NCBI GenBank assembly: GCA_917880885.1 | Contig: OU862928.1 | Span: forward strand, 39,792,962-39,856,961 | DNA length: 64,000 bases | From: Limnephilus marmoratus | Lineage: Eukaryota > Arthropoda > Insecta > Trichoptera > Limnephilidae | Direction: 5' to 3' | Shown: positions 4,446-64,000 of the stretch, in pieces | Numbering within the stretch: the stretch's first letter is position 1 | How the letters are laid out: every line of letters begins with the position of its first letter | Notes under the pieces: model-generated | The model's database searches: none | What the model was told of the DNA's origin: nothing | The model's input: the letters and a program-made list of their open reading frames with translations, nothing else | Made by a program: the position numbers and the translations under genes

Positions 4446-4759
4446 CATCAAGTCATTCAACAACAATACAACAATAAACAGTGTGTACCACGATATTTTG
4501 CTCTACCAATAAAATCACAAAATCTATATCTAAAACCATCATATTGAAAATTAAATATATTGGAGGTAATTCTTTGGGTCACATTTAGTGTACAAACTGC
4601 AAACTTGGCTTTGATTCATTAATTCTACAGTGATTTCAAGTGTCTTTTCGATAAAGTGACAGTTGCTGTGAACTCCAGTGTTTATTTGTGTTAAGAACTG
4701 TGACTGCTTATTACAAAACTTTCACTGCCTATTCCAAATAACAGTGAAACATCATCAAC

Positions 4760-5674
4760 ATGAACAACATATGCCAAGAATGTTCCGAACCTACACTTTC
4801 TGCAGAGTCTATTTTTGTGTGCATAACCTGCAAGGAGACATTTCATCTGCAATGTGGAGGTGTAGCGGAAACTACCTACCGTCGCCTCTCTAAGGAGCGG
4901 CGTGCCCTCATAAAATGTAAACAATGCATTTGTGTCACACCGACTGTCAAACCCAGCGGCAGTTCACTTATTGATAGTGAACTACTCTCTAAACTCCTCG
5001 AACAAAACACGCAGATTCTTGCCACTCTAGCGGGGATGAGCAAGCAATATGAGGAGATTCTCCTTCGCGTCCATGAGCTTGAGGACACTAATAACAAACT
5101 GGAGAAAAAAAACACCAGCCTCGAAGCAAGAATTGAAGTGTTAGAAAATCACATGGAGCAAATCGATAGGCAAAATAGGTCTAAAAACGTAGAAATCAGG
5201 GGGGTCCCAGAAAATAACGGGGAAAACTTGAAAAATCTTATATCCAACATCAAAAAAACTACTAATTCAAACGTGGAAATGAACAAGATTGACGCAGCTT
5301 ACCGCATCTCCCAAAAAATACCTAAAGATCAATGCAGGCCCATAATCATATCATTTAAAACCAGTATCGACCGTGATGTTTTCCTGACAGACATAAAAAA
5401 GTTCAACAAAGAAGCAAACAATAGAGAGGAAAAACTCAACACCACCCTCGTCGGAATTGCAGGACCTCGCTCCCACATATACGTCTCGGAACACCTTACG
5501 TTTCGTGCGAAACACTTGTGGTTCCTTGCACGTAAGGCTACACGGGAAAACTTATTTAAATTCGCCTGGACCCGTGGAGGGCAAGTGTACGTCCGCAAAG
5601 AAATTGGGACACCAGTCATTATTATCAATGACAAAAACAAACACCTCTTATCTCCCTCACTCAATAACTTGTAA
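4760..5674 (+). CDS. LINE ORF1 protein: PHD-like zinc finger, coiled coil, RRM-like region
   Basis: A 304-residue frame is likely the RNA-binding partner of the LINE reverse transcriptase. Residues about 4-55 form a PHD-like Cys/His cluster (CQECSEP, CITCKETFHLQC, CKQC). Residues about 85-145 are charged and heptad-like (EEILLRVHELEDTNNKLEKK), a coiled coil for trimerisation. Residues about 148-300 resemble the ORF1 RRM and C-terminal domains (VEIRGVPENNGENL, DAAYRIS, RPIIISFKT). The start is the ATG directly before the first Cys pair. The frame is intact. The 3' end overlaps the start of a long out-of-frame open stretch through the spacer repeat. Confidence 0.8.
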   Translation: MNNICQECSEPTLSAESIFVCITCKETFHLQCGGVAETTYRRLSKERRALIKCKQCICVTPTVKPSGSSLIDSELLSKLLEQNTQILATLAGMSKQYEEILLRVHELEDTNNKLEKKNTSLEARIEVLENHMEQIDRQNRSKNVEIRGVPENNGENLKNLISNIKKTTNSNVEMNKIDAAYRISQKIPKDQCRPIIISFKTSIDRDVFLTDIKKFNKEANNREEKLNTTLVGIAGPRSHIYVSEHLTFRAKHLWFLARKATRENLFKFAWTRGGQVYVRKEIGTPVIIINDKNKHLLSPSLNNL

Positions 5675-5689
5675 AAAAACTGTAACTAT

Positions 5690-6925
5690 TGTACTTATGT
5701 TTATATATTTTTTATTTTACCCAAAAATCATTAACATCACTATTTTATCTATTAAACTCAACCTATTATATGAACCAGAAGGGCACAGGTATATGGCGAC
5801 AGGGGAATTTAAATTATTTAATTTGTATTTTTCTAGTTTTCTTTTATATCTTTACACAAACACTCCATTTAGTTTTAACATTAACAAATATAAATCTTGT
5901 ACTATGTATCTTCAATTCGTAGTTACAATATATACCTGCTATAATTATATAAAATACTTGCAACAACTAAATCCTTATAGCACTTGTGTACTTTACATGC
6001 TTGTGCTTATGTTTTATATTCTTATGTTTTATACTCCTTATATGCTTATGCTCTATATGCTCGTGATATATACTCGCAACAAATATATGCATACTTTGTA
6101 TACTTATGCTTGTGTTATACATGTTAAATATCCGCAACGACCAAATACATATATCACTGGTATACTTTATATGCTTATGTTTTATTTTCTTTATATGCTT
6201 GCGTTTTATAATCTTTTTAAGCTTATGTTTTATTTTCTTTGTATGCTCATATTTCATATTCTTATGTTATTTATTATTTATATGTTTATGTCATACATTC
6301 GCAGAAACTATAAGTACACTTTATACACCTATACTTATACTATAAATACTTTATATGCTTATGTTAAACATTCTCAACAACTAAATTCTTATATCACTTA
6401 CATACTTTTTTTGCTTATGCTGATGTTTTATACTATTTATAAGCCTATGTTTTATTTACTTAATATTCTTTATATGCCTATATTTTATGTTCTATATATG
6501 CTTGTGCTACATATTTTGTATACGCTGATGTTATATTTTCGCAACAACTATATGTGTACCTTATATACCTATGTTTATGTTGTACATACTATACATACTT
6601 TACATACATACTTTTATTTTATATTCTATATACGCTCGTATCATATATTATCTATACGCTTATATTATATTTTTCGTAACAACTATTTGTATACCTTATA
6701 TACCTATTGTGTTATATATACTATATATGCTTATATTATAAATTCACAACAACAAAAACCTTATTTCACAAAGCTTACACTATATTCTTATGCTTATGTC
6801 ATATATTCATTATGTGCTTATATTATATATTCACAACAACTATATTTACACTTTATATATTTATGTATATTTTATATATTTATATCAACTAAATCTCTAT
6901 CTCATAAACGTACCAATGTCACTAC
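5690..6925 (+). repeat. Degenerate tandem repeat between LINE ORF1 and ORF2
   Basis: About 1.2 kb of imperfect short units around TATGCTTATGTTTTATATT is punctuated every 90-200 bp by a second motif close to CGCAACAACTATATGTATAC (for example near 5955, 6070, 6130, 6300, 6375, 6540, 6677, 6745, 6830). One frame stays open through the whole array (5457-6980, about 507 codons), giving a Tyr/Leu/Ile/Met-rich translation. That looks like a by-product of the repeat unit and not a real protein. Normal LINE spacers are short, so this is unusual. Confidence 0.8.
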
Positions 6926-6928
6926 AAC

Positions 6929-9900
6929 TTGGTTGTTAATAATTTATGCAAAACAAAAAACCAGAAAATGGAAGACATAGCAGATTTAATAGATAACACA
7001 ACACAAATCCCATGTATATCTACCAATGATTCCGAAGTAGTACGTCAATTATTATTAACTAATTCAACCCTTACGATATTCTCTATGAACATAAGAAGTA
7101 TAAACAAAAATTTTGATGAACTTCTTATTCTCCTCACTAATCTTGTCTCAGATTTTGATATAATTGTCTTGAGTGAATGCTGGATTCAAGGAAATTTCAT
7201 CCCTAAAACGATAAGAAACTACAATCACTATAATACTCTACACAACCAAACTCAGAACGACGGAGTCATTGTATACATTAAAAATCATATCTCTCACTCA
7301 GTAAAAGAGATCAAAATTAAATATGCAAACTGTCTACAAATTCAAATTGATAATCATATAACACTTCTTACAATGTACAGATCTCCGAATACACATAACA
7401 TAGCCCCATTCATACATTCACTGCAAGAAATTTTATCAAACATTGAACACCGCCAAAACACCTTTATAATAGGTGATCTTAACATAAATATAATTAATAA
7501 AATGCACCCTCAAGCAAATGAATACCTAAACGCACTAACTTTATTAGGATATTTTCCAGCTGTTACAGCACCAACTAGAGAATCAGACTCAAACACTAGC
7601 AGTTGTATAGATCATGTATTTGTTAAGAGTGAATTAGACACCAAATCCATTGTCTATCAATCAACTGTTACAGATCACTATTCAATCATCACTTCTCTCT
7701 CGCATAAAAATCATAAATCACCACAAAATACTTCCCCTCAAGAAAAGATCTCATATGAAACTCTCCTAAACAGTGTCTCTAAAGAAAACTGGGAACTTAT
7801 CTATTCTTGTACCGATGTCACCTCTGCATGTGAATTATTTATAAATACCCTACGTAACCACTTAACCGATGCTACATCATACACAAAAAGTAAAAATAAA
7901 CGATCTGACACAAAACTCAAACCATGGATCACTGCAGGAATTCTCTACTGTATCAGAAAGCGCGATAAGATTCATAACTTCTGTAGAAAAAATCCCCACG
8001 ATTATGAATCTCTCTTATTCTACAAACGTTACAGAAATAACTGCAAAAAAATAATTGACAGTGTTAAAAGAGATTACTACCATAAACAAATCAGTGAAGC
8101 TACCGGTGATAATAAAAAAATTTGGAATATCGTTAAAGATATAGCCAATATTAATAAAACCAATACACCCATTGTTAAGATTAACATCGAAGATCAAATA
8201 TTACATGTCAATTCCGACCCCGAAAAAATTTCCGACCATTTCAATCAATTTTTCTCCAATATTGGATCTAACTTAGCAAAAAATATTTTAGACAGGCACA
8301 ACGTCTCGAACAAAGATCTTGCAAACAATATACCCCTCACTAATCTTAGCTATAACCCTTTCCAATTCACTCCCACTACTGACACAGAAATTTTAGAACT
8401 AATCTCATCCCTTAAAAACAGTAACTCTGTAGGTATAGATCACATTTCAACAAAAATCATCAAACATATCCAAAAATATATAGCCTCACCTCTGAAACAT
8501 ATAATCAATCTAAGCTTTAAAACTGGTGTATTTCCTAACTCCTTAAAACAGGCCACAATAATCCCAATATTCAAATCAGGAGACAAACTATCTGTAAATA
8601 ACTATCGACCGATATCTTTACTTAGCACAATATCTAAAATCATAGAAAAAGCGGTGAAGAATAGACTCTACAAGTTCCTTGAAGAGAACAAAATATTATC
8701 GGACAACCAATATGGTTTCCGCAAAGGTAGGAGTACCTCAGATGAATAGCCGCCCTCACAAAAATAGTTTCTTTTAATCTTGACCTTGGTCGAAAACCGC
8801 TTGCTGTTTTCCTCGATCTCTCAAAAGCATTTGATACGGTCTCCCATCCCTTACTGCTTAAAAAACTTCAACAGATCGGAATAACTGGGATACCCTACAC
8901 ATGGTTCGAAAACTACCTAACAAACCGAACTCAACAAACTCTTATCCAGTCTGACAAAATAAATAAAAGCAAAAAATTATCCATGTCTTACGGTGTACCG
9001 CAAGGCAGTGTACTAGGACCACTCTTATTTCTTTTATACATCAACACACTATGTACCATGGATATTGGAGGTAAGATTTTATCATTTGCCGACGATACAG
9101 TCTTAATATTCGAAGATGAAACATGGCAAGCAGTTATTAATAAAACTAATAATGGCCTAATAAAAGTGAGGCATTGGCTTGACACAAATCTCCCTACACT
9201 CAATATTGACAAAACACAATATATGACGTTTTCCATACGCAAACATAATTTTCCCAACAACTGCCCTAAACCAATAATTCACTCGTGTTCACTAAACATG
9301 CACCCACACCCACCCGGAACCCCACCTATTACAAATTGCACGTGTCCTACCCTTAAATCATCTAAGGAAGTTAAATATCTGGGCATAATCATAGATGACC
9401 AACTACGTTGGGAAGCACACATAAGTGACACAGTGAAAAGACTCCGTAAGCTCTGCCATATATTCTGCTCTCTTAGATCCATCTTAGACCTAAAAACCCT
9501 TAGAAGCGTATATTTTGCCCTTTTTCAATCCATTGCAACTTACGGTATTTTGGGATGGGGTGGTTGCACAGAATCCGTCATTAATCCAATAATTACAGTT
9601 CAAAAACTAATACTGAGAATCATATTTAAATGCCAACCTACCCACCCCTCTAATGTGCTATTTACTAAATTTAAGGTCTTAGATATTCGCCAACTATTCA
9701 CTAAGACAAGCCTATCCTACGTACGGAAAAATAACCTACTGGTGGCTCCACAACATCAAGCCAAAACCCGCTTTTCATCAAATCTGGGATGCATGGTTCC
9801 AAAAACTAGAACCACATTCGCTCACCGACAATTTTGGTTCATTGCCCCCAAAATATACAATGCATTGAGCACCGATATAAAATCAAGTATTACCATACCT

Positions 9901-9975
9901 CTTTTTACTATTCGTGTTCAAAATTGGATATTCGAAAGGGGACGAGATTTCTTTAAAGAATATCTGACTTCCTAA
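6929..9975 (+). pseudogene. LINE ORF2: APE endonuclease and reverse transcriptase, one frameshift
   Basis: The first half (6929-8749) has the endonuclease landmarks SMNIRSINKN, LSECW, YRSPN, GDLNINI, SCIDHVF and TDHYS, then RT motifs (YRPISLLSTISKIIEK, QYGFRKGRS). The frame stops at 8749. The next frame over, open from about 8743 to 9975, continues with FLDLSKAFDTV, GVPQGSVLGPLLFLLYIN, the catalytic FADD, KYLGIIIDDQLRW and the C-terminal domain. A single indel near 8740 therefore separates otherwise complete halves (or it is an assembly error). The likely start is the ATG at 6929 or the one at 6968 (MEDIADLI). In the family this protein nicks target DNA and copies the LINE RNA onto it. Confidence 0.85.
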
Positions 9976-22900: not shown

Positions 22901-22974
22901 AAACTTTATTTATACACAAAAACATGACATTTTTGTAAAATTTATTAAATAAAAAAAAAAAAAAAAAAAAAAAC
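19964..22974 (+). mobile_element. 5'-truncated LINE (same group as the 4-14 kb LINE) inside gag
   Basis: Starts within the endonuclease domain and ends in an A run at 22952-22973, after which gag resumes. ORF1 and the first half of the endonuclease are absent, the usual result of incomplete target-primed reverse transcription. The exact left junction lies somewhere between 19945 and 19975. The short shared ACATT at both junctions may be the target duplication. Confidence 0.8.
20088..22547 (+). pseudogene. LINE ORF2 fragment: endonuclease C-terminus and RT
   Basis: 20088-21008 carries GDINIDI, SSCIDHIW and TDHHTCIV of the endonuclease. After an in-frame TGA and an A-run frameshift near 21100, the RT continues with YRPISLTSNIAKIFEK (21127-21504). 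It shifts again near 21435 and proceeds with GIPQGTVLGPILFIIYVNDI, the catalytic YADD and the thumb region to 22547. At least three disruptions. Similar in order and spacing to the ORF2 at 6929 but clearly a separate family. Confidence 0.82.
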
Positions 22975-30394: not shown

Positions 30395-30900
30395 AATCTT
30401 ACTAATATTATAAACGCGAAAGTTTGTACGGATGTTATGTGTGTTTGTTACTCTTTCACGCAAAAAAAAAACTAAATGGATTTTGGTTATTTCCTTTTGG
30501 GGTATTATGCCGTGTTGCGCTACCTCCTCCTTTAGCCAACGTTTCGGACAGCGTTACAGTGTCCATCATCAGGGCAGATGATGGACACTGTAACGCTGTC
30601 CGAAACGTTGGCTAAAGGAGGAGGTAGCGCAACACGGCATAATACCCCAAAAGGAAATAACCATAAAATTTTTGGCCGTGAAAACCTAAAATCATATCTA
30701 AATGGATTTTGATGAAACTTATCAATAATATAGCTCATATATCAGAATAACATATAGGCTATAATTTATAAAACTAGCTAGTAAGGGGACGCGGGAGGGG
30801 AACGGGGACGCACGGGAAAGGTGATTCAGAGAGACACAATGTATTTCATTGAATATGGCATTGCAACGCACGCCAGGAAAAAAGCTATTAAATATATAAT
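30395..30900 (+). mobile_element. Helitron-like non-autonomous repeat, interrupted
   Basis: Starts TCTTACTAATATTATAAACG, which resembles the 5' TC start I associate with lepidopteran Helitrons, followed by GTTTGTTACTCTTTCACGC. It is interrupted by a 14-bp-duplicated insertion (30486-30697). The block after 30785 (GGACGCGGGAGGGGAACGGG, GGCATTGCAACGCACGCC) recurs inverted at 44464-44700, where it ends in CTAGT. Assignment rests on remembered ends. Confidence 0.45.
30486..30697. mobile_element. Retro-inserted palindrome with hammerhead-like core
   Basis: Flanked by a perfect 14-bp duplication CTAAATGGATTTTG (30472-30485 and 30698-30711). Most of it is a perfect inverted repeat: arms 30485-30570 and 30577-30662 (86 bp each), loop AGGGCA. 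The right arm contains GATGATGGACACTGTAACGC followed by TGTCCGAAACGTTGGC. This matches the repeats at 45669 and 54071, where the preceding bases complete CTGATGA. Penelope-like elements are known to carry hammerhead ribozymes and to insert as inverted copies with target duplications, so this may be such a fragment (inference). Confidence 0.6.
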
Positions 30901-32639: not shown

Positions 32640-33366
32640 GGTAAATGTATTATTGGGGGGCAAGAATTCCAATAATCCATGCGCTTGATAGCTGCAAGAC
32701 GAGTTGTTATCTAGCCCCTACATAGTTAAGTAAATTAAAATACGTACATATAAAAAGATATTTTATTTTATTTGATTTATTGGGGGGCTAGAATTCCAAC
32801 AATCCATGCGCTTGATAGCTGCAAGACGAGTGGTTATCTGGCCCCCTACATAGTTAAGTAAATTAAAATACGTACATATAAAAAGATATTTTATTTTATT
32901 TGATTTATTGGGGGGCTGGAATTCCAACAATCCATGCGCTTGATAGCTGCAAGACGAGTGGTTATCTAGCCCCCTACATGGTTAAGTAAATTAAAATACG
33001 TATGTACATATAAAAAGATATTTTATTTTATTTGATTTATTGGGGGGCTAGAATTCCAACAATCCATGCGCTTGATAGCTGCAAGACGAGTGGTTATCTG
33101 GCTCCCTACATGGTTAAGTAAATTAAAATACGTACATATAAAAAGATATTTTATTTTATTTGATTTATTGGGGGGCTAGAATTCCAACAATCCGTGCGCT
33201 TGATAGCTGCAAGACGAGTGGTTATCTAGCCCCTACATAGTTAAGTAAATTAAAATACGTACATATAAAAATATATTTTATTTTATTTAATTTATCGGGG
33301 GGCTAGAATTCCAATAATCCATGCGCTTGATAGCTGCAAGACGAGTTGTTATCTAGCCTCCTAAGT
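32640..33366. repeat. Six-copy 128-bp satellite with a hairpin in each unit
   Basis: GAATTCC anchors fall at 32663, 32791, 32919, 33051, 33179 and 33305 (spacing 126-132). Each unit has GGGGGGCTAGA ... TCTAGCCCCC, about 10 paired bases enclosing roughly 45 nt that include CTTGATAGCTGCAAG, itself a small hairpin. Between hairpins is the AT-rich TACGTACATATAAAAAGATA. Variants keep pairing (CTAG/CTGG changes make G-U pairs), hinting at structure. Confidence 0.85.
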
Positions 33367-33374
33367 TAAGTAAA

Positions 33375-33480
33375 TTCTAATGTAAAATCCAAGCTAATTT
33401 GTACAGCGCTCTTGAGGCGATTTTTCGCAAAAACAGCGCTATATAAGTTGTCCAAATTAATTATTATTATTATTATTGTG
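33375..33480. repeat. L2/CR1-like LINE 3' tail
   Basis: GCGCTCTTGAGGCGATTTTT, then CGCAAAAACAGCGCTATATA and a (TTA)n run ending near 33478. The same tail occurs at 47530-47600 after a recognisable LINE C-terminus, and broken versions lie at 34930, 35580, 63255 and 63870. Confidence 0.6.
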
Positions 33481-34027: not shown

Positions 34028-35448
34028 TTATCGAGTGTGGTCAAGCATGTGAAATTTTAATCGCTTCTTTTCAGAACATGAGTAGCTGCATAAGGAACAT
34101 GAATAAGGTTTTTCTCCAGTGTGGATAAGCGTGTGACGATTTAAATTTTTCTTTTGAGAACATGAATAGCTGCATAATGAACATGAATAAGGTTTTTTTC
34201 CAGTGTGGGTAAGCATGTGACGGTTTAAATTTTCTTTACGAGAACATAAATAGCTGCATAATGAACATGAATAAGGTTTTTCTCCAGTGTGGATAAGGTT
34301 GTGACGATTTAAATGTTCATTTCGATAACATGAATAGCTGCATAATGAACATGAATAAGGTTTTTCTCCAGTGTGGGAAAGCGTGTGCCGATTTAAATAA
34401 TCTTTTCTAGAACATGAAAAGCTGCATAAGGAACATGAATAAGGTTTTTCTCCAGGAAGTGAATTCTGGTTCGTTGTTAGGTCTGAAAAAGGCGGAGAGT
34501 TAAGCTTAATAAGTAGATATCTATAATGAAAACTGAAAATTAATAAAACGAATTCAGATATATAAAAAATTACCTGCCGTCGGGGTAAAATTTTCAGAGT
34601 GGTCTAAGCATTCCTCCTTTACATCGGGAAAAGTAATGTCTATTTCGGTATAAGGAATTCCCGCTTCATCTTCTTGGGGTCCTCGTTCAGCATTGATGGA
34701 AACAGACTTCACATTAATGCTTCCTGGAATAATAAAACAACAATACATTGATATGTCAAGACATGCTCATTACTGTCTAAGGTGATATTGTAATGATTAT
34801 TTGTATTAATATTTGAATTACGAGTATGTATGTAAAACGAAATTCGTATCCGCAATAAGTTTTGATGCACCGCCAATTTTTTTAATTTCAGAAGATTATT
34901 AAAAAAGCCTGATTTTCATTATGAACAGAGCCCTTGAAAAGATTTTTCACAAAAACGACAAGGTCACTCACAAATGGTTTTTATTTTTAAATAAAAAATA
35001 AGAGGAACCTATTTTAGCACACATTCTAATAATATTCAAAGGAGCAAAATTATTGGGTAACTAAATCGGGCGACCCCCATCAAAAAACCACCTGCAGGGT
35101 TTTTTATCTGCTAGTCATTAATAATATTAGGAACGTGCACCATAATAAGTTGAGTGTTTTTTTAGTTGGACAGTTTCATGTAAAGCAATATTTCAGTTGG
35201 ACGATAAAGGGGAAGAAGAAAACAAGAAGAACAATACTGACTCCTGACTGCGTGATTCTGAAACATTTTGTCATGTACGCAAGGCACTCACTAGTTGGCT
35301 GAACACTTTCACTTTCATACTGCAAACATTCCTTCTTTACATCCTGGAGGCTAATTTCAATATCCGTATACAGCATTTCACTTGCGCCTTCCTCCTGGGA
35401 CTCTTGTTCTGTCTTGATGGAAACAGTCTCTGGGTTGGGAAGATCCAT
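34028..35448 (-). CDS. C2H2 zinc-finger protein, gene 1 (three coding exons, 5 fingers)
   Basis: Probable nuclear DNA-binding regulator. Coding exons on the minus strand: A 35448-35292 (MDLPNPETVSIKTEQESQEE), B 34723-34574 (acceptor ATTCCAG, donor GTAATT) and C 34482-34028 (acceptor TTTTTCAG). Phases agree and give 254 codons with stop. Exon C encodes five tandem fingers of form C-x2-C-x12-H-x3-H (CSLCSYSCS...), joined by HTGEKP linkers. Exon C ends at TAA where a linker GEKP would continue, and degenerate fingers go on to 33536, so the protein is shortened relative to gene 2 (12 fingers). Exons A and B resemble each other and contain acidic residues plus IKTE, a SUMO-type motif. An upstream noncoding exon is likely (acceptor near 35509). 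Confidence 0.8.
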
Positions 35449-35559
35449 GGTACTGCTGTGATGGCGTCTGGTTATGTGATGGTAATAATTGGTAAAATAA
35501 AGTTGACCTGCAACAGAACATGAATTAATCAGACTAATTTGGGTGGTGAAAAGGAGCTA

Positions 35560-41619: not shown

Positions 41620-43350
41620 CAGGGTTGTTATGTCTAATAAAATTATTTCCCTAGATTTCAATGCGAAATTTCCCTAGGTACCACCTTGACAGAAGAAAAA
41701 AAACACTTGACAATTAAAAAAAAAACTGCAATCGGGGGGGGGGGGGGGAGGGTAAATTGTCAAAATCAAAATTGAAACACAAAATCCAGAGTGGAAGATG
41801 CCCTGGTGTACGACCACCGTTTAGAGTTAAAACTTTGCATGAAACGTGTTTGGTGACTAAATCTGAATAGCCGGGCACTTCCCCACCTTCCTCTCCTCCA
41901 CCACCGTCCCCTACACACTTATTTTCAGCCTCACAACACCCCTACATTGGGGATGCCATAGTCTCACTGGTTCCAGAAGGGAGCAGTTGGGACTTTTCTG
42001 AGGTATTCACATTAAAAATAAAATAGATAGGTTATTAATTTGGGTAAGCTAAGTAAGTAATTTATTATTCATGCATATTTTGATTTAAACGAAACTCTCG
42101 TAACTGTTACATAAATGTAAAATACACAAAAAAATTAAAATGGCGCCAAAGAATCGTATTATACACGAAATTATTAGTTAAAATGGAAATTTAATGCATC
42201 TTTTACAAACCTTCTAGTTAAACGTACCAAGTTGTTTATTGTAGTAATTAAGTTGAAATACAGTATACAGTGTAATTACTAAAATCTGTGTCTAATAAGA
42301 GTGCGGCGACTACTGGAATACCTACTATTATTTTAAATCCATTTTCTTTTTATTTATTTATTTATTGACGCCCAATTGGGCTTTTAAGAGAACATATTAA
42401 ATACAATTTTCAGCCGGCATCAAAGCTCGTATTTCAAGCAAACTTCACTCACTCGACGGCTCGTATCTCAAATATCTCGTATGTTAGGGCGCCCGTATCT
42501 CGAGGTACCACTGTACATTCATTTTACTTTTGGATATTACCTCTCTTGGGTTAGATCACAGGTTCTCAAAAAGGGCGATAACGCCCCCTTAGGGGCGCTT
42601 CAGACCTTCAGGGGGCGGTAGGAGACCCAGAAAAAACCCATTTGAAACGTTATTTGACAATTTTAATTATTTTTTCTTTATAGTTTAAATTGGAACGAAA
42701 TATTGTTTTAGGTGGCAAGTCTTAGTGTGGCGTTATAGGCAATATTTTGGAAAAAAAACATGTGCACGGAGTAAATAGTCATATACTTGCAACGTTTGGT
42801 CAAAGAAACTTCAGGTACTTTGCAACAAAACTTTATAATACACTTCCACTGAACATTAGACAGCGCTAATCACGTAAAATACAAAACAGATACCAAGTTT
42901 TGGATCACTAGCAATGACAGATCATATATTAACGATATTGTTAGAACCTCCTAATGCATGCTTTCCCATTGGTACGATGCTGATTGTCCTTGTACTTTAA
43001 TTGTTTTAAGCATTGTTGTTGTTATTCTTATTTTTGTTTTGAATAATTTATGCTAAAATGCGCCTGCTCTCAACACAGGAACTCCTAGTGAGACAGGCAC
43101 AGCACAATCACCAATGTTAACTAATAAATAAAGATTATAATAAAAAATGATAAAAAGCAATGCATAACATATACAATTTCAGCTGAAATTGTATATTTTA
43201 CCAAGAAGAAGATTACAAATCCAATAAATTAAAAATAAAAAAAATGGCTAGAATCCGAAATTTCCCTAGATTTGTGATGATTTCCCTTTTCCCTAAAAAA
43301 TATTTTTCTCCCCTAGATATAGGGCAATTTCCATAGACATCTCAACCCAG
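41620..43350. mobile_element. hAT-like element shared by both duplication copies (copy 1)
   Basis: 8-bp duplication CCGTAAAC (41612-41619 and 43351-43358). Termini CAGGGTTGTTATGTCTA and, inverted, CTGGGTTGAGATGTCTA. The counterpart at 52176-53940 has the same duplication, so insertion predates the segmental duplication. It contains a G run (41735), subterminal TTTCCCTAG motifs, and a LINE 3' fragment (42770-43150). No transposase. Confidence 0.85.
42770..43150 (+). pseudogene. LINE C-terminus and 3' UTR fragment
   Basis: FGQRNFRYFATKLYNTLPLN is typical of the last residues of CR1/Jockey-type ORF2, followed by a short 3' UTR (GCCTGCTCTCAACACAGGAA) and an AATAAA-rich tail. Duplicated at about 53310-53720. 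Confidence 0.55.
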
Positions 43351-45553: not shown

Positions 45554-45629
45554 CCAACAATCAACATAAAACAACTGGAAACCAGTCTTGCCATGTGCCA
45601 AAAATGAAAAACCAAGTTATAGGGTTGAA

Positions 45630-45755
45630 AAAACCTTGTTTTGAAAAATAATAAAACAACAATCTGCTCTGATGATGGACACTGCAACGCTGTCCGAAAC
45701 GTTGGCTAAAGAAGAAGGTAGCGTAACACGGCATAATACCCATAAAATAATAAAA
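45630..45755 (+). ncRNA. Hammerhead-ribozyme-like motif in a repeat (copy 1)
   Basis: CTGATGA (45669-45675), U, then GGACA pairing with TGTCC (45677-45681 with 45691-45695), then GAAA (45696-45699). This is the catalytic-core order of hammerheads. An extra U precedes stem II and I cannot identify a cleavage triplet or stem I with confidence. A second copy lies at 54071 and an inverted dimer at 30486. Activity is unproven. Confidence 0.4.
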
Positions 45756-45831: not shown

Positions 45832-46770
45832 ATGTTTCCAAATGTCATACTATGACATTCACCAGAAATAAACATGTTATTAAGTACTCTTATTCACTCA
45901 ATAATGAACCTGTCATCTCGAAAACGGAATGTAAAGATCTTGGTGTGTACCTCGATAGCAAACTTATATTTAATAAGCACATCGACTCAATCGTTCACAG
46001 GTCATATAAAATGCTTGGTTTTGTTCTTCGCATAAGTAAAATGTTCAATAACCCGCGTACAGTAATAATGTTATATTTTGCATTAGTCAGAAGTACACTG
46101 GAATATGCTTCGCCAATTTGGAACCCGCAATACAAAGTATACATAGATAGCATAGAAAATATTCAAAACAAATTTATAAAATATCTTGCCTTTAAATTCA
46201 ACAATAACTTTGAATGCACATTTCAAACATTGCAACAAAGGCGAGCAATAGCTGATTTGACATTTATACACAAAATTTTAAATAATAACATTGACTGTAC
46301 CGAACTTCTTTCCCTAGTTAATTTTAATATACCCTTAAGACGTACACGTCATACAGAACTATTCCACACGCTTAATTACAAGACAAATGCAGCATCTAAT
46401 TCACCAATCAATCGTGCTCTTCATAAGTTCAATATTATTGGTCTAAATTCCAACATTGACATTTTCTCCGATTCACTGCCCAAATTTAAAAAGAGCATCT
46501 TGCGAATATTATAATTTGTTCAATGCGCACACATACATACACACATACTCACACACTCACACACACACCTTCCCACTACATACATCACCCGGTAATTACT
46601 TAATACGCATACCATAAATAAGACACTACAATGAAACACATAATAGGTACCTACCATGTAATATACTTATAAATTGTAATTTTTTAAACAAATTATCTTT
46701 TGTACTGTTTGTTTCTGTTAATAAATAAAAAAAAAATAAAAAAAAAAAAAAAAAATAAATAAAAAAAAAA
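45832..46770 (+). mobile_element. 5'-truncated Jockey-type LINE 3' end
   Basis: Coding frame to 46514: GVYLDSKLIFNKHIDSIV, LRSTLEYASPIW-type thumb motifs (VRSTLEYASPIWNP) and IENIQNKFIKYL, then a 3' UTR with a CA-rich run (46530-46570) and an A tail ending about 46770. Absent from copy 2 (54230-54250), where ATATATGGCTAGC follows directly. A short AATATAT may be the target duplication. Confidence 0.85.
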
Positions 46771-46861
46771 ATATATGGCTAGCTACAGTCTGAAAAGTAG
46801 AACATGTAATATAAAGTCAAATGAAATAAAAGGAAGGAAATTAAAAAATGTGATATATTGA

Positions 46862-48982: not shown

Positions 48983-49713
48983 TTTACCCCGATTGTAATT
49001 TTTTGTGGTGCCTTCAGCAAGACGCACCAAAAAGCTTCGCGGGCCGCAGGTTCCCCACTATTCCCCACCTCTGCTTTACGGGATCAAGAGTGTTCCGCAT
49101 TTATTGGGTAATTCTCAATGACGTTTTATAAATAAATAGACTCGCCATAGTCTCATGTACTCACAATATAATGTGGATAGTAAGGAACACTCTTTTGTTT
49201 TCAGCGATTTTCAGTATAATTTCTTAATTCAAAATTTTATTCCTGTGTGATAAAGAGAGGCAATCAAATAATGCGTATGTATGAATGACATGGATATATA
49301 TGAGCGGGCGGCGTATTGCTTGTCAGTTTTTAATGGAACGTTCACTGTCTCCTTTTCTTGAGGCCCACTAGAATAAAAGGTCCGGCTGCCCATCAGAGTT
49401 TGATATGTCGAGCTACGCAATAAATTCAATTAATAGGGCAACGACAGTTTTCAAATGGTGGCGATTGTCATCAATACTTGTTAGAACTACTGATTTATGT
49501 GTTGTTTTACCGCAAGCAAACAGATAAACAGAGTGTTTAGGCTGATCAGTCTACTTTAAAACAGTGAAGTTTACTTAGCAACAGAAATTTGGCTTTATTA
49601 TAAATTTTTTAAACTTTATGAGTAAAATCTCAAATTATAATATTTAATTAAATGAAGACAATATTAGCGAAACTGAATCGAAATCTGGAGACAGAAAAAT
49701 CAGAAAAGATATT

Positions 49714-49785
49714 TGCTCCGCTGGGACTCGAACCCAGAACCCTTTTCTTACATGGAAACAGCTCTACCGATTAAGCTACGGAACC
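49714..49785 (-). tRNA. tRNA-like sequence 1 (tRNA-derived repeat)
   Basis: Has box A TAGCTTAATCGG and box B GGTTCGAGTCC of Pol III promoters, and folds as a cloverleaf: D stem GCTT/GAGC, T stem CTGGG/CCCAG, acceptor GGTTCCG/CGGAGCA with a terminal mismatch. The anticodon stem has a mismatch and position 33 is A not U (loop CATGTAA), so a normal decoding tRNA is unlikely. Read literally, the anticodon would be TGT. Confidence 0.5.
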
Positions 49786-50128
49786 CATATTAATTCGGTC
49801 ACTTTTAACTGTATCATACTTCGACTAAGAACTACCAACATTATCTTCATTTACTTAACGCACATATTATTGGCTGCTATCTTTATATATGATTACAAGA
49901 TTCAACTCGAACTAAATGCAATCTAGATAGTGTCTGGATAATTTTTTATCCATTTTATTTGTAATACGCGACATCTATTGACTTTTTTCTGCAAGTCTAG
50001 GATGAATATTTATTATAAATTTTTTAAACTTTATGAGTAAAATCTCAAATTATAATATTTAATTAAATGAAGACAATATTAGCGAAACTGAATCGAAATC
50101 TGGAGACAGAAAAATCAGAAAAGATATT

Positions 50129-50200
50129 TGCTCCGCTGGGACTCGAACCCAGAACCCTTTTCTTACATGGAAACAGCTCTACCGATTAAGCTACGGAACC
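50129..50200 (-). tRNA. tRNA-like sequence 2
   Basis: Identical to copy 1 at a spacing of 415 bp, same strand. Confidence 0.5.
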
Positions 50201-50543
50201 CATATTAATTCGGTCACTTTTAACTGTATCATACTTCGACTAAGAACTACCAACATTATCTTCATTTACTTAACGCACATATTATTGGCTGCTATCTTTA
50301 TATATGATTACAAGATTCAACTCGAACTAAATGCAATCTAGATAGTGTCTGGATAATTTTTTATCCATTTTATTTGTAATACGCGACATCTATTGACTTT
50401 TTTCTGCAAGTCTAGGATGAATATTTATTATAAATTTTTTAAACTTTATGAGTAAAATCTCAAATTATAATATTTAATTAAATGAAGACAATATTAGCGA
50501 AACTGAATCGAAATCTGGAGACAGAAAAATCAGAAAAGATATT

Positions 50544-50607
50544 TGCTCCGCTGGGACTCGAACCCAGAACCCTTTTCTTACATGGAAACAGCTCTACCGA
50601 TTAAGCT
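50544..50607 (-). tRNA. tRNA-like sequence 3, truncated, in the palindrome loop
   Basis: Identical to copies 1-2 but lacks the first eight bases of the 5' acceptor strand. It is joined at AAGCT to the inverted half. It forms most of the hairpin loop. Confidence 0.5.
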
Positions 50608-50935
50608 GATTCTGTCTCCAGATTTCGATTCAGTTTCGCTAATATTGTCTTCATTTAATTAAATATTATAATTTGAGATTTTACTCATAAAGTTTAAAAA
50701 ATTTATAATAAATATTCATCCTAGACTTGCAGAAAAAAGTCAATAGATGTCGCGTATTACAAATAAAATGGATAAAAAATTATCCAGACACTATCTAGAT
50801 TGCATTTAGTTCGAGTTGAATCTTGTAATCATATATAAAGATAGCAGCCAATAATATGTGCGTTAAGTAAATGAAGATAATGTTGGTAGTTCTTAGTCGA
50901 AGTATGATACAGTTAAAAGTGACCGAATTAATATG

Positions 50936-51007
50936 GGTTCCGTAGCTTAATCGGTAGAGCTGTTTCCATGTAAGAAAAGGGTTCTGGGTTCGAGTCCCAG
51001 CGGAGCA
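50936..51007 (+). tRNA. tRNA-like sequence 4
   Basis: Exact reverse-orientation copy. Boxes A and B intact. Confidence 0.5.
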
Positions 51008-51350
51008 AATATCTTTTCTGATTTTTCTGTCTCCAGATTTCGATTCAGTTTCGCTAATATTGTCTTCATTTAATTAAATATTATAATTTGAGATTTTACT
51101 CATAAAGTTTAAAAAATTTATAATAAATATTCATCCTAGACTTGCAGAAAAAAGTCAATAGATGTCGCGTATTACAAATAAAATGGATAAAAAATTATCC
51201 AGACACTATCTAGATTGCATTTAGTTCGAGTTGAATCTTGTAATCATATATAAAGATAGCAGCCAATAATATGTGCGTTAAGTAAATGAAGATAATGTTG
51301 GTAGTTCTTAGTCGAAGTATGATACAGTTAAAAGTGACCGAATTAATATG

Positions 51351-51422
51351 GGTTCCGTAGCTTAATCGGTAGAGCTGTTTCCATGTAAGAAAAGGGTTCT
51401 GGGTTCGAGTCCCAGCGGAGCA
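51351..51422 (+). tRNA. tRNA-like sequence 5
   Basis: Exact copy of sequence 4, 415 bp downstream. The unit is cut about 70 bp later by the A tail. Confidence 0.5.
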
Positions 51423-52175
51423 AATATCTTTTCTGATTTTTCTGTCTCCAGATTTCGATTCAGTTTCGCTAATATTGTCTTCATTTAATTAAAAAAAAAA
51501 AAGAAATTTGGCTGTTGCGCGTCCAGACCCTTTACTTTAGTAGGACTTGAATTATTTCTAATGACGTTTAAAACCGCGAGCGGGAAACATGAAAATTAAT
51601 TGTAATATTTATAATAATCGATAATATTAAGTAATTTGCGTGTACTTACAAATGAAATGTTATTCATTCGCCTTTACTATTATTTGCCGTGTAATTGAAA
51701 CATTTTCTCATCACACAGGAGGGCATTTTGACACTTTTTAAAATGCAATTTACTTACTGGTAAGACGCAACCTTACTCGACGCGTAGCAGTTTAGTACTA
51801 AAGTACTAGATATCGAGCTCCGTACAATTGTCTTGTTCTTGTCTTCCCACTTTGAGATTTCTACCCCTCGTCTAAAAATATGTAACGTCATTGGCAATTC
51901 TATGGATTTTTGATGATTTTGCGAGGGAGTTTTTATTTTTTAACATGGCAACGCTGGTTATAGGTACACACACAACAATAATATGAAATTGGGAACTAGT
52001 TAATATTTGGAGCATAATTAAAGATTATATAGGTTTACCGTCTATTATTGCCATCGAGTGCACGTAAAAGACAAAGGTTGTTGCGATCAGTCAAGTCAAA
52101 ATGTAATAAGTGAAGATAAGATGAACTTACTGATAGCTTGGTTATTATGTGCGACAGGTGTCAGCGGCCGTAAAC

Positions 52176-53940
52176 CAGGGTTGTTATGTCTAATAAAATT
52201 ATTTCCCTAGATTTCAAGGCGAAATTACCCAAGGTACCACCTTGACATAAGAAAAAAAAAAACACTTGACATTTAAAAAAAAAACTGCAATCGGTGGGGG
52301 GGGGGGGAGGGTTAATTGTCAAAATCAAAATTCAAACACAAAATCCTGAGTGGAAGATGCCCTGGTGTACAACTACCGTTTAGAATTAAAACTTTGCTTG
52401 AAACGTGTTTGGTGACTAAATCTGAATAGCCGGGTACATCCCCACCTTCCTCTCCTCCATCACCGTCCCCTACACACTTATTTTCAGCCTCACAACACCC
52501 CTAAATTGGGGATGCCATAGTCTCACTGGTTCCAAAAGGGAGTAGTTGGGACTTTTTTGACGTATTCACGTTAAAAATAAAAATAGATAGGTTATTAGTT
52601 TGGGTAAGCTAAGTAAGTAATTTATTATTCATGCATATTTTGATTTAAACGAAACTCTCGCAAATGTTACATAAATGTAAAATACACAAAAAAAATGGCG
52701 CCAAAGGAATCGAATACACGAAATTTTGAGTTAAAATGGAAATTTAATGCATCTTTTACATACTTTCTAGTCAAACGTAATAACTTGTTTATTGTAGTAA
52801 TTAAGTTGAAATAGAGTATACAGTGTAATTACTAAAATCTGTGTTTAATAAGAGTGCGGCGGCTACTGGAATACCTACTATTATTTTAAATCCATTTTAT
52901 TTTTATTTATTTATTTATTGACGCCCAATTGGGCTTTTAAGAGAACATATTAAATACAATTTTCAGCCGGCCGTTCCTCGTATTTCAAAGCAAAACTTCA
53001 CTCACTCGACGGCTCATATCTCAAATATCTCGTATCTTAGGCGCCCGTATCTCGAGGTACCACTGTATATTCATTTTGCCTTTGGATATTACCTCTCTTG
53101 GGTTAGATCATAGATCATAGGTTCTCAACGAGGGCGATAACGCCACCTTGGGGGCGCTTCAGACCTTCAGGGGGCGGTAGGAGACCCAGAAAAAACCCAA
53201 TTGAAACGTTATTTGACAATTTTAATTATTTTTTTTATAGTTTAAATTGGAACGAAATATTTTTTTAGGTGGCAAGTGTGGCGTTATAAACAATATTTTG
53301 GTAAAAACATGTGCACGGAGTAAATAGTTAAATACTCGCAAAGTTTGGTCAAAGAAACTTCAGGTACTTTGCAACAAAACTTTATAATACACTTCCACTG
53401 ACCTTTAGACAGCACACTAATAAACTAAAATACAATACAATAAATAAACACTAAAATACAAAACAGATACCAAGTTTTGGATCACTAGCAAAGATAGATC
53501 ATATATTAACAATATTGTTAGAACCTCCTAATGCATGCTTTCCCATTGGTACGATGCTGATTGTCCTTGTACTTTACTTAAAATGTTATTAGCATTGTTG
53601 TTGTTATCCTTATTTTTGTTTTGAACTATTTATACTAAAATGCGCCTGCTCTCAACACAGGAACTCCTAGTGAGACAGGCACAGCACAATCACCAATGTT
53701 ACCTAACAAACAAAAATTATAATAAAAAAAATGAAAAAAAGCAATGCATAACATAGAGATGCCTTCAGCTGAAATTGTATATTTTACCAATGAGAAGAAG
53801 ATTACAAATCCAATAAATAAAAAATAAAAAAAATGGCTAGAATCCGAAATTTTCCCTAGATTTGTTATGATTTCCCTTTTTCCTAAAAAATATTTTTCTC
53901 CCCTAGATATAGGGCAATTTCCATAGACATCTCAACCCAG
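52176..53940. mobile_element. hAT-like element shared by both duplication copies (copy 2)
   Basis: Counterpart of 41620-43350, with the same CCGTAAAC duplication (52168-52175 and 53941-53948) and termini, a G run at 52290 and the LINE C-terminal scrap at about 53310-53720. Many small differences indicate an old duplication. Confidence 0.85.
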
Positions 53941-54039
53941 CCGTAAACAAAACACCAACAATCAACATAAAACAACTGAAAACCAGTCTTGCCATGTGCC
54001 AAAAATGAAAAACCAAGTTATAGGGTTGAAAAAAACCTT

Positions 54040-54165
54040 GTTTTGAAAAATAATAAAACAACAATCTGCTCTGATGGTGGACACTGCAACGCTGTCCGAA
54101 ACGTTGGCAAAAGAAGAAGGTAGCGTAACACGGCATAATACCCAAAAAATAATAACAAAAATAAT
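54040..54165 (+). ncRNA. Hammerhead-like motif (copy 2)
   Basis: As at 45630, but the core reads CTGATGG (A9 changed to G) before TGGACACTGCAACGCTGTCC and GAAA. A9 is essential in hammerheads, so this copy should be inactive. Confidence 0.3.
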
Positions 54166-61742: not shown

Positions 61743-63786
61743 TTAAGGTTTTTGTCCAGTGTGGGTAAGCATGTGACGATTTAAATTTTCTTTACGAGAA
61801 CATAAATAGCTGCATAATGAACATGAATAAGGTTTTTCTCCAGTATGGGTAAGCGTGTGGCAATTTAATTGTTTCTTTTCAGAACATGAATAGCTGCATA
61901 TGGAACACAAATAAGGTTTTTCTCCAGTATGGGTAAGCGTGTGACGATTTAAATGTACCTTTCTAGAACATGAATAGCTGCATAAGGAACATGAATAAGG
62001 TTTTTCTCCAGTGTGGGTAAGGGTGTGATGATTTAAATTTACCTTTAAAGAACATGAATAACTGCATAATGAACATAAATAAGGTTTTTCTCCAGTGTGG
62101 GTAAGCATGTGAGGTTTTAATTGCTCCTTTTTAGTACATGAATAGCTGCATAAGGAACATGAATAAGGTTTTTCTCCAGTATGGATAAGCATATGAGGTT
62201 TTAACCGCCCCTTTTGAGAACATGAATAGTTGCATAAGGAACATGAATAAGGTTTTTCTCCAGTGTGGGTAAGCGTGTGCTGATTTAAATTATCTTTTCT
62301 AGAACATGAAAAGCTGCATATGGAACATGAATAAGGTTTTTCTCCAGTATGGGTAAGCATGTGAGGTTTTAATTGCTCCTTTTTAGTACATGAATAGCTG
62401 CATAAGGAACATGAATAAGGTTTTTCTCCAGTATGGATAAGCATATGAGGTTTTAACCGCTCCTTTTGAGAACATGAATACTTGCATAAGGAACATGAAT
62501 AAGGTTTTTCTCCAGTGTGGGTAAGCGTGTGACGATTTAAATTTTCCTTTCGAGAACATGAATAGCTGCATAATGAACATGAATAAGGTTTTTTTCCAGT
62601 GTGGGTAAGCGTGTGTTTCTTTAATTGCCCCTTTAGAGAACATGAATAGCTGCATAAGGAACACGCATAAGGTCTTTCTGGAGTGTGGGTAAGCGTGTGA
62701 GGTTTTAACCGTCCCCTTTCAGAACATGAATAGCTGCACAATGAACATAAATAAGGTTTTTCTGCAGGATGCGCCTTCAGATCCGTTGTTAGATCTGAAA
62801 AAGGCGGATGATTAAGCTTAATACGGAAGTATCGGTAATGAAAACTGAAAATTATTAAAACGAATTTAGACGAATAAAAAATTACCTGCTGTCGGGGTAA
62901 AATTTTCAGAGTGGTCTAAGCATTCCTTCTTAACATCGGGAAAAGTAATGTCTATTTCGGTATAAGGAATTCCCGCTTCATCTTCTTCTCGGGGTCCTCG
63001 TTCTGCATTGATGGAAACAGACCCCACATTAATGCTTCCTGGAATAATAAAACAACAATACATTGATATGTCAAGACATGCTCACTATTACTGTCTTCGG
63101 TGCTATTGTAATAATTATATTATTTGTATTAATATTTGAATTACGAGTATGTATGTAAAACGAAATTCGCACCCTACGCAATAAGTTTTGATGCACCGCC
63201 AATTTTTTTTTAATTTCAGCAGATTAATAAAAAAAGCCTGATTTTAATTATAAACAGAGCCCTTGAAGAGAGTTTTCACAAAAACGACAAGGGCATTCAC
63301 AAATGGTTTTTATTTGAAAATAAAAAATAATAGGTACCTATGTATTAAATACATTTAAGCACACATTCTAATAATATTCAAAGGGGCAAAATTATTGGGT
63401 AACTAAATCGGGTGACCCTCATCAAAAAACCACCTGCAGGGTTTTTATCTGCTAGTCATTAATAATATTAGGAACGTGCAACATTATAAATTGAGTGTTT
63501 TCTTAGTTGGACAGTTTTATGTAAAGCATATTTCAGTAAGACGATAAAAGGGGAAGTAGAAAACAAGAAGTACAATATTGACTCTTGACTGGGTGATTCT
63601 GAAACACTGTGTCATATACGCAAGGCACTCACTAGTTGGCTGAACACTCTCAGCATACTGCAAACATTCCTTCTTTACATCCTGGAGGCTGATTTCAATA
63701 TCCGTATACAGCATTTCACTTGCGCCTTCCTCCTGGGACTCTTGTTCTGTCTTGATGGAAACAGTCTCTGGGTTGGGAAGATCCAT
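61743..63786 (-). CDS. C2H2 zinc-finger protein, gene 2 (three coding exons, 12 fingers)
   Basis: Likely nuclear DNA-binding transcription regulator. Minus-strand exons: A 63786-63633 (donor GTGAGT), B 63038-62886 (acceptor ATTCCAG), C 62794-61743 (acceptor TTTTTCAG). Phases match and give 452 residues. Exons A and B are acidic and mutually similar (both end DVKKECL). Exon C encodes 12 uninterrupted fingers, C-x2-C-x12-H-x3-H, each with an extra Cys (CSLCSYSCS) and TGEKP linkers. Predicted contact residues vary between fingers (SERGRLKPH, SRKENLNRH, TKKEQLKPH), and fingers 4-5 and 7-8 are near duplicates. It ends at TGQKP then TAA, exactly where a Tyr codon would continue the next finger, so the end may be secondary. 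Confidence 0.87.
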
Positions 63787-64000
63787 GGTACTGCTGTAAT
63801 GGAGTCTGGTTATGTGATGGGAATAATTGCTAAAATAAAGTAGACCTGAAACAAAACAAGAACAGATGGTAAAAGTGCCCTTAAGGTAAGTTTATCACAA
63901 AAACAGCACAATAAAAATGATGAAAATTTGAGATTACCGCCGCCTCAGAAATCATTAATTAGATAACCAACACGTACCTCACCACAAGTGGTTCGCCACG
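63787..64000. promoter_or_regulatory. Upstream flank of zinc-finger gene 2
   Basis: Matches 35449-35720 upstream of gene 1, including an acceptor-like stretch before a presumed noncoding exon, the broken L2-like tail (63870) and CACCACAAGTGGTTCGC at the window end. The promoter itself is not identifiable. Confidence 0.5.

Follow-up and report, generated by a model that had tools for sequence, protein, structure and literature searches.

Among the closest known counterparts of the locus reported here are retrocopies made by twin priming, a process in which, according to the excerpts of PMC2912911 and PMC12016303 that treat it, one strand primes at the 3' tail of an RNA and the other primes inside it. 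The excerpted human data of PMC12016303 give a median target duplication of 13 bp, median cDNA lengths of 751 bp (inverted) and 571 bp (non-inverted) for germline 5'-inverted L1, and two ends that lie within 20 bp of each other in 132 of 287 human cases (46%); the published median of the twin-priming overlap, from the same excerpts, is 12 bp. These pages further report 5' inversion in 3 of 23 processed pseudogenes and in 0.02% of germline Alu. PMC2912911 describes microhomologies in twin priming and terms 5' inversions of small RNAs mobilized in trans "few", and PMC4476161 attributes 7 of 30 small-RNA chimeras to twin priming. Judging from titles and abstract openings, twin priming seems to be little described outside mammals, the insect-related literature including work on Drosophila R1 and R2, and none of those titles and openings describes a twin-primed tandem tRNA retrocopy.

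The window, by which we mean the whole 64-kb stretch of Limnephilus marmoratus DNA that was analyzed, contains an insert at positions 49583-51513 that invites this comparison. It consists of a 12-bp direct duplication around 1.9 kb of DNA, the content of which is only a 415-bp unit and a short A-run. Its parts are as follows.

49583..49594, plus strand: target-site duplication, left copy, AGAAATTTGGCT, 12 bp
49595..50607, minus strand: segment read as the inverted (5') cDNA, 1013 bp, about 2.44 exact units, period-415 run
50606..50611, strand not applicable: inversion junction, CTGATTCTG in place of the unit's CTGATTTTTCTG
50610..51493, plus strand: segment read as the non-inverted (3') cDNA, 884 bp, 2.13 exact units, period-415 run
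51491..51502, plus strand: A12 run, the first three A native to the unit and about 9 extra
51502..51513, plus strand: target-site duplication, right copy, AGAAATTTGGCT, 12 bp

The two runs of the 415-bp unit stand head to head. On the left, positions 49594-50607 (1014 bp, 2.44 units) carry the tRNA sense on the minus strand with 0 mismatches; on the right, positions 50610-51493 (884 bp, 2.13 units) carry it on the plus strand, also with 0 mismatches. The original prediction, made from the sequence before this analysis, had described a 415-bp unit with minus copies followed by plus copies, and the exact period-415 runs agree with it. It had also described mismatch-free arms of 881 bp: the perfect identity stands, and the length is revised to 884 bp, with arms at 49643-50526 and 50610-51493 that are 100% complementary and separated by an 83-nt spacer. 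Counted along the unit in the tRNA sense, the left segment extends from phase 334 to phase 102, and the right one from phase 0 to phase 54. The inner ends (334 and 0) are not mirror images of each other, and nor are the outer ends (102 and 54). The junction itself, CTGATTCTG against CTGATTTTTCTG, can be read either as a 2-bp overlap (CT) with the T-run 3 shorter, an overlap that holds only if 3 lost T are allowed, or as 2 untemplated bases (GA).

No second copy of the 415-bp unit was found elsewhere in the 64-kb window, and its comparison with the rest of the window yielded no convincing likeness (best other match 26 bases, 85%, E 0.02). Exact unit patterns gave 0 matches in viral contigs and 0 in prokaryote genome contigs, and the unit DNA had no match among phages and plasmids, all of these being searches that say little on animal genomes and from which records of the same genome, or very near ones, were possibly excluded.

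The tRNA-like parts of the repeats are distributed over both runs.

49713..49785, minus strand: tRNA-like, called tRNA-Thr (TGT) by ARAGORN; Rfam 43.2 bits
50128..50200, minus strand: tRNA-like, called tRNA-Thr (TGT) by ARAGORN; Rfam 43.2 bits
50551..50607, minus strand: tRNA-like, 5' side cut by the inversion junction; Rfam 28.2 bits, under the gathering score of 29
50936..51008, plus strand: tRNA-like, called tRNA-Thr (TGT) by ARAGORN; Rfam 43.2 bits
51351..51423, plus strand: tRNA-like, called tRNA-Thr (TGT) by ARAGORN; Rfam 43.2 bits

Where five tRNA-like cassettes had been predicted, there are thus four complete ones, at 43.2 bits each, and a fifth that is truncated and scores 28.2 bits. 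What we take to be box A and box B can be recognized in the tRNA-like sequence, and runs of T4 and T5 lie 6 and 14 nt past the tRNA end (as defined by our script), as in a tRNA gene. U33 is the rule at position 33 of a tRNA; here, the anticodon at 34 is preceded by A, and in the aligned tRNA-like fold neither the first acceptor pair nor the first anticodon-stem pair is matched. The sequence departs from the canonical fold and residues of a functional tRNA gene (43.2 bits, two stem mismatches, A at 33), and because of the mismatched pairs and the A at position 33 we use the label "tRNA-like", in the sense of a degenerate tRNA. A tRNA-derived SINE was rejected: neither the insert nor the unit is bounded by a tRNA 5' end, the repeated unit includes 272 nt that separate the A-tail phase from the start of the next tRNA, and the T4 and T5 runs would be early Pol III terminators between the tRNA part and the 3' tail. 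The "tandem SINE-like array" once suggested for this locus is not supported, given the tRNA-start layout and the T-runs, and 64 kb of sequence contain no second copy.

The two outer ends of the insert carry the marks of its entry. On the plus strand of the window AGAAATTTGGCT occurs twice, both times flanking the insert, and it occurs 0 times on the minus strand; at the left end its last T also fits the repeat, a 1-nt microhomology. The A12 run stands at the plus-sense 3' end, its last A perhaps belonging to the target duplication, and the left end is without a matching run. Among the 30 A-runs of at least 9 in the window (20 plus, 10 minus), only that of the insert has an exact 12-bp repeat upstream within 7.5 kb; one of the other 29 has an A-rich 10-mer upstream and 28 have nothing of 10 or more. 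When the 1919-bp spacing was applied as a control, matches of at least 12 appeared at 0 of 58,482 other positions (49000-52500 excluded). Since the duplication and the A12 run bracket the whole insert, we conclude that it entered as one A-tailed retroposition event, and insertion as a single RNA-derived unit, as originally predicted, is upheld by the enclosure of both orientations. No AATAAA was found 10-35 nt upstream of the A-tail, the nearest one lying 43 nt downstream of the tail, and an ATTAAA ends at the A-tail itself. Because no poly(A) signal lies 10-35 nt upstream, ordinary mRNA polyadenylation is not claimed, and the A-tail may have been made by something other than normal mRNA polyadenylation. 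A search of the remaining window for an empty site, with the two flanks joined as query, turned up three partial matches (two right, one left), none spanning the join.

We propose, with a probability of roughly three in four, that target-primed reverse transcription of the LINE type, combined with twin priming, produced the insert from an RNA that contained a minimum of 4.3 or 5.3 tandem units. The repeats, arms, duplication, A-run, junction and unit phases are seen directly in the sequence, and from them we infer the LINE origin, the twin priming and the length of the template. A LINE-encoded endonuclease and reverse transcriptase, acting in trans, would have copied an RNA that spanned several head-to-tail 415-bp tRNA-bearing units. 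The nicked bottom strand would have primed at the A-rich 3' end of this RNA and yielded the right-hand cDNA (50610-51502), and the top strand of a second nick would have primed inside the same kind of RNA and yielded the left-hand inverted cDNA (49595-50607). A short overlap would then have joined the two cDNAs, and the palindrome, with its 884-bp arms, would have come to lie between two copies of a 12-bp target sequence. Several features expected of twin priming are found at the locus: a duplication around the whole insert, an A-tail at the non-inverted 3' end, inversion of the 5' part alone, a short overlap at the junction, and a 1-nt microhomology at the left end. Twin priming being a published route to an inverted layout, the strand switching or wholly new element to which the original prediction resorted is not needed to explain it.

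The unit phases leave two possibilities for the two cDNAs. Either they overlap by roughly 102-109 nt, and the RNA had 4.3 units or more, or roughly 306-313 nt between them were skipped, and the RNA had 5.3 units or more. A skipped gap is somewhat more likely than a long overlap because the published overlap median is 12 bp. Several points speak against the proposal. The tail has no poly(A) signal at the usual distance, as noted above; neither the 102-109 nt overlap nor the 306-313 nt gap fits the 46% human class with ends within 20 bp; the priming site implied by the insert, TTTCT/GT on the bottom strand, is absent from the L1 sites listed in the excerpts of PMC12016303; and small trans-mobilized RNAs are rarely 5'-inverted, the figures for this rarity being those of mammalian L1 and not of this host.

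Candidate sources of the enzyme lie in the same window. Pfam identified non-LTR proteins among the eight that were scanned, with one ORF matching both Exo_endo_phos and RVT_1 and three more matching RVT_1. A-rich runs occur about 0.2-0.4 kb downstream of two LINE-like ORFs (22951-22973 and 46723-46771); Pfam found nothing in the latter ORF, which we call LINE-like on our own reading. Among the best 120 of 7084 matches to a LINE reverse transcriptase, the three that name an organism are from Lepidoptera, at 38, 38 and 44% identity. It is plausible that an element like those in the window moved the RNA. The window also includes, at 4748-9975, a multi-ORF non-LTR element with a Baculo_FP_2nd protein followed by an endonuclease and reverse transcriptase in two frames.

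Other repeated sequences in the window are recorded here in their own right. A tandem array at 32650-33376 has a 128-bp unit in 5.7 copies with 94% matches. At 34028-35556 and 61743-63891 lie two zinc-finger genes, or pieces of such genes, that are related to each other and have 84-bp finger arrays; a 209-bp stretch is 96% identical between them (35316-35524 and 63654-63862). A dispersed repeat is present in two copies, 41691-42418 and 52250-52971, which are about 95% identical over the two listed stretches; the second copy lies just downstream of the insert.

As to the template, the segments pass internally through the start phase of the A-tail five times in all, without a seam or a mismatch. 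These five crossings make a continuous multi-unit template, whether array or circle, the more likely one; template jumping between monomer RNAs is disfavored, as it would need exact end-to-end joining five times. The source could be an array of homogeneous tandem units or a circle, of DNA or of RNA, and the sequence fits both. In one specific version of the circle, a 415-nt circular RNA would have been reverse transcribed for more than one round from both nicked strands, rolling being combined with twin priming, and the A-run would stem from slippage at the native TTAATTAAA and not from a poly(A) tail. We consider this version unlikely. It would account for units that are all identical and seamless, with five internal crossings of the A-site phase, for a tail that no poly(A) signal precedes by 10-35 nt, and for extra A that number only about 9, and the circularized unit folds well in the tRNA sense (z -4.57; other sense z -2.08). 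Unit identity, however, is equally well explained by a tandem DNA array, and no Rfam ribozyme family was detected at 49300-51800 with E up to 5. A retrozyme was rejected on the same search, whose nine Rfam matches (49300-51800, E up to 5) include no ribozyme family, with an undescribed ribozyme being conceivable.

Apart from its tRNA-like part, the unit has a predicted secondary structure and a possible promoter.

50832..50840, plus strand: TATA box TATATAAAG, 31 nt before the hairpin start (unit index 168 vs 199)
50863..51078, plus strand: 216-nt hairpin, imperfectly paired and tipped by the tRNA-like part, z -5.4

TATATAAAG recurs at the 415-bp period in other units. From the first TTAA to the A-tail point, the 216-nt fold is predicted at -65.9 kcal/mol (z -5.4), with 0 of 200 shuffles as low, and in the last unit the hairpin finishes exactly at 51493, the end of the templated sequence and the point after which the extra A of the tail begin. 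Its outer stem has 55 pairs, 7 of them G-U, and the mean probability of these pairs is 0.77 when two units are folded as one transcript. An alignment of one flank of the tRNA-like part to the reverse-complemented other flank has 76 columns, of which 49 are identical; it shows 10 transitions and 11 transversions. The flank-to-flank score exceeds those of all 2000 shuffles (0/2000 as high); in a blind foldback search of the whole unit, 106 of 500 shuffles (strict) and 19 of 300 (looser) score as high, and the foldback is unremarkable in the first case and only slightly exceptional in the second. Together, the hairpin, the TATA box and the shared 3' end hint at, without demonstrating, a discrete hairpin RNA gene that ends at the retroposed 3' end.

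Such a gene could be built into a broader scenario, in which the 415-bp unit would be a tandem TATA-promoter gene for a 216-nt RNA with a tRNA-like tip on a double-stranded stem (about 70 nt per side). LINEs would mobilize its multi-unit transcripts or circles, which would make them a new class of non-autonomous retroelement; this class would spread in the form of perfect palindromes and, through long dsRNA, feed or escape a host small-RNA pathway. We offer this scenario as a speculation and hold it to be decidedly unlikely.

Very unlikely, in our view, is a new kind of LINE-assisted mobile element that normally exists as several tRNA-tipped hairpin units joined in a multimer. In its favor, the hairpin is framed by the TATA box at -31 on one side and the A-tail point on the other, but both boundary coincidences were noticed post hoc: a TATA-type box falls at -35 to -28 in 110 of 5000 shuffled spacers, and a hairpin 3' end within 3 nt of the A-tail point is expected at about 1.7% (7 of 415 positions). 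Nor is the edge of the hairpin sharp, since the most stable 216-nt window of the circularized unit (3-nt sampling) starts at index 198, against a hairpin start of 199, and windows at 195, 201 and 204, that is, 3 nt earlier or 3-6 nt later, are within 0.6 kcal/mol of it. Also in its favor, folding is strong for the tRNA sense and weak for the reverse complement (z -5.8 vs -2.3). The stem differences of the G-U type outnumber those of the A-C type, 8 of the 10 transitions keeping a G-U pair in the tRNA sense and 2 of the 10 not, a bias that is no more than suggestive; this 8 vs 2 is not significant (binomial about 0.055), and the stem has 11 transversion mismatches. A single insertion of the supposed element is known.

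A MITE or foldback DNA transposon was also rejected, given outer ends at phases 102 and 54, the A-tail, and no TIRs beside the target duplication; an imperfect inverted repeat does occur, inside the 415-bp unit and not at the ends of the insert. Elsewhere in the window, a short palindromic repeat at 30481-30666 has 90-bp arms that are 99% complementary and 6 nt apart. Its relatives in the window, including those near 45628-45753 and 54030-54155, are 71% alike in direct and 88-91% in inverted orientation, the 45628 and 54030 copies are 98% alike, and the group looks like a foldback or MITE family.

Foldback artifacts do exist in assemblies and sequencing, and perfectly identical arms would be expected of one, but that such a foldback (through chimeric long reads, for example) made the present palindrome is highly improbable, as a simple foldback mirrors at one phase and would carry flank on both arms, whereas the ends here are out of phase (334/0 inner, 102/54 outer) and bear, on the outside, a 12-bp duplication and an A-run, both hallmarks of retroposition.

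The 0 differences between the 884-bp arms accord with the recent event that had been predicted, and they set a 95% upper age of about 0.34-1.7 million generations at assumed rates of 5e-9 to 1e-9 per base, an estimate that is void if gene conversion or assembly polishing kept the arms alike. The nearly complete double-stranded transcript that had also been foreseen is reproduced in the predicted fold, which is 96% paired at -1541 kcal/mol, and a transcript of the insert could be a source of long dsRNA. If twin priming is correct, a LINE enzyme can copy RNA that is read through several identical tRNA-bearing repeats, and twin priming offers a direct route from a tandem array to a long-hairpin (dsRNA) locus with 0.9-kb arms. 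The tRNA-tipped hairpin, with its coinciding promoter and 3' end, would in turn be a testable candidate for an unusual structured RNA.

Compared with known systems, the insert resembles the 5'-inverted L1 copies and processed pseudogenes of Ostertag and Kazazian 2001, as they are presented in excerpts of PMC12016303 and PMC4476161, in its A-tail, short duplication, inverted 5' part and short overlap, a likeness that leaves aside whether the LINE acting here is L1-like. It differs in its template, a multi-unit tandem tRNA-bearing RNA, so that the two cDNAs repeat each other and form a perfect palindrome. The twin-primed snRNA copies in the excerpts of PMC4476161 are similar in that a small-RNA sequence was inverted by a LINE enzyme; they mostly combine one snRNA piece with L1 or SVA, whereas here both parts are the same repeat. 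The SINE-derived satellites of squamates, as outlined in PMC10702118, likewise tie tandem repeats to a short retroelement sequence, but those are arrays grown from portions of SINEs, and here the tandem unit itself has been retroposed and inverted. Finally, the tRNA-linked miRNA precursors of murine gammaherpesvirus 68, as outlined in PMC5415849, also unite a tRNA-like part and a miRNA-precursor part in one RNA. There, the tRNA part is 5' and the RNA is a Pol III transcript; here, the tRNA-like part sits at the tip of a long stem, and the T4 and T5 runs lie inside the 3' arm.
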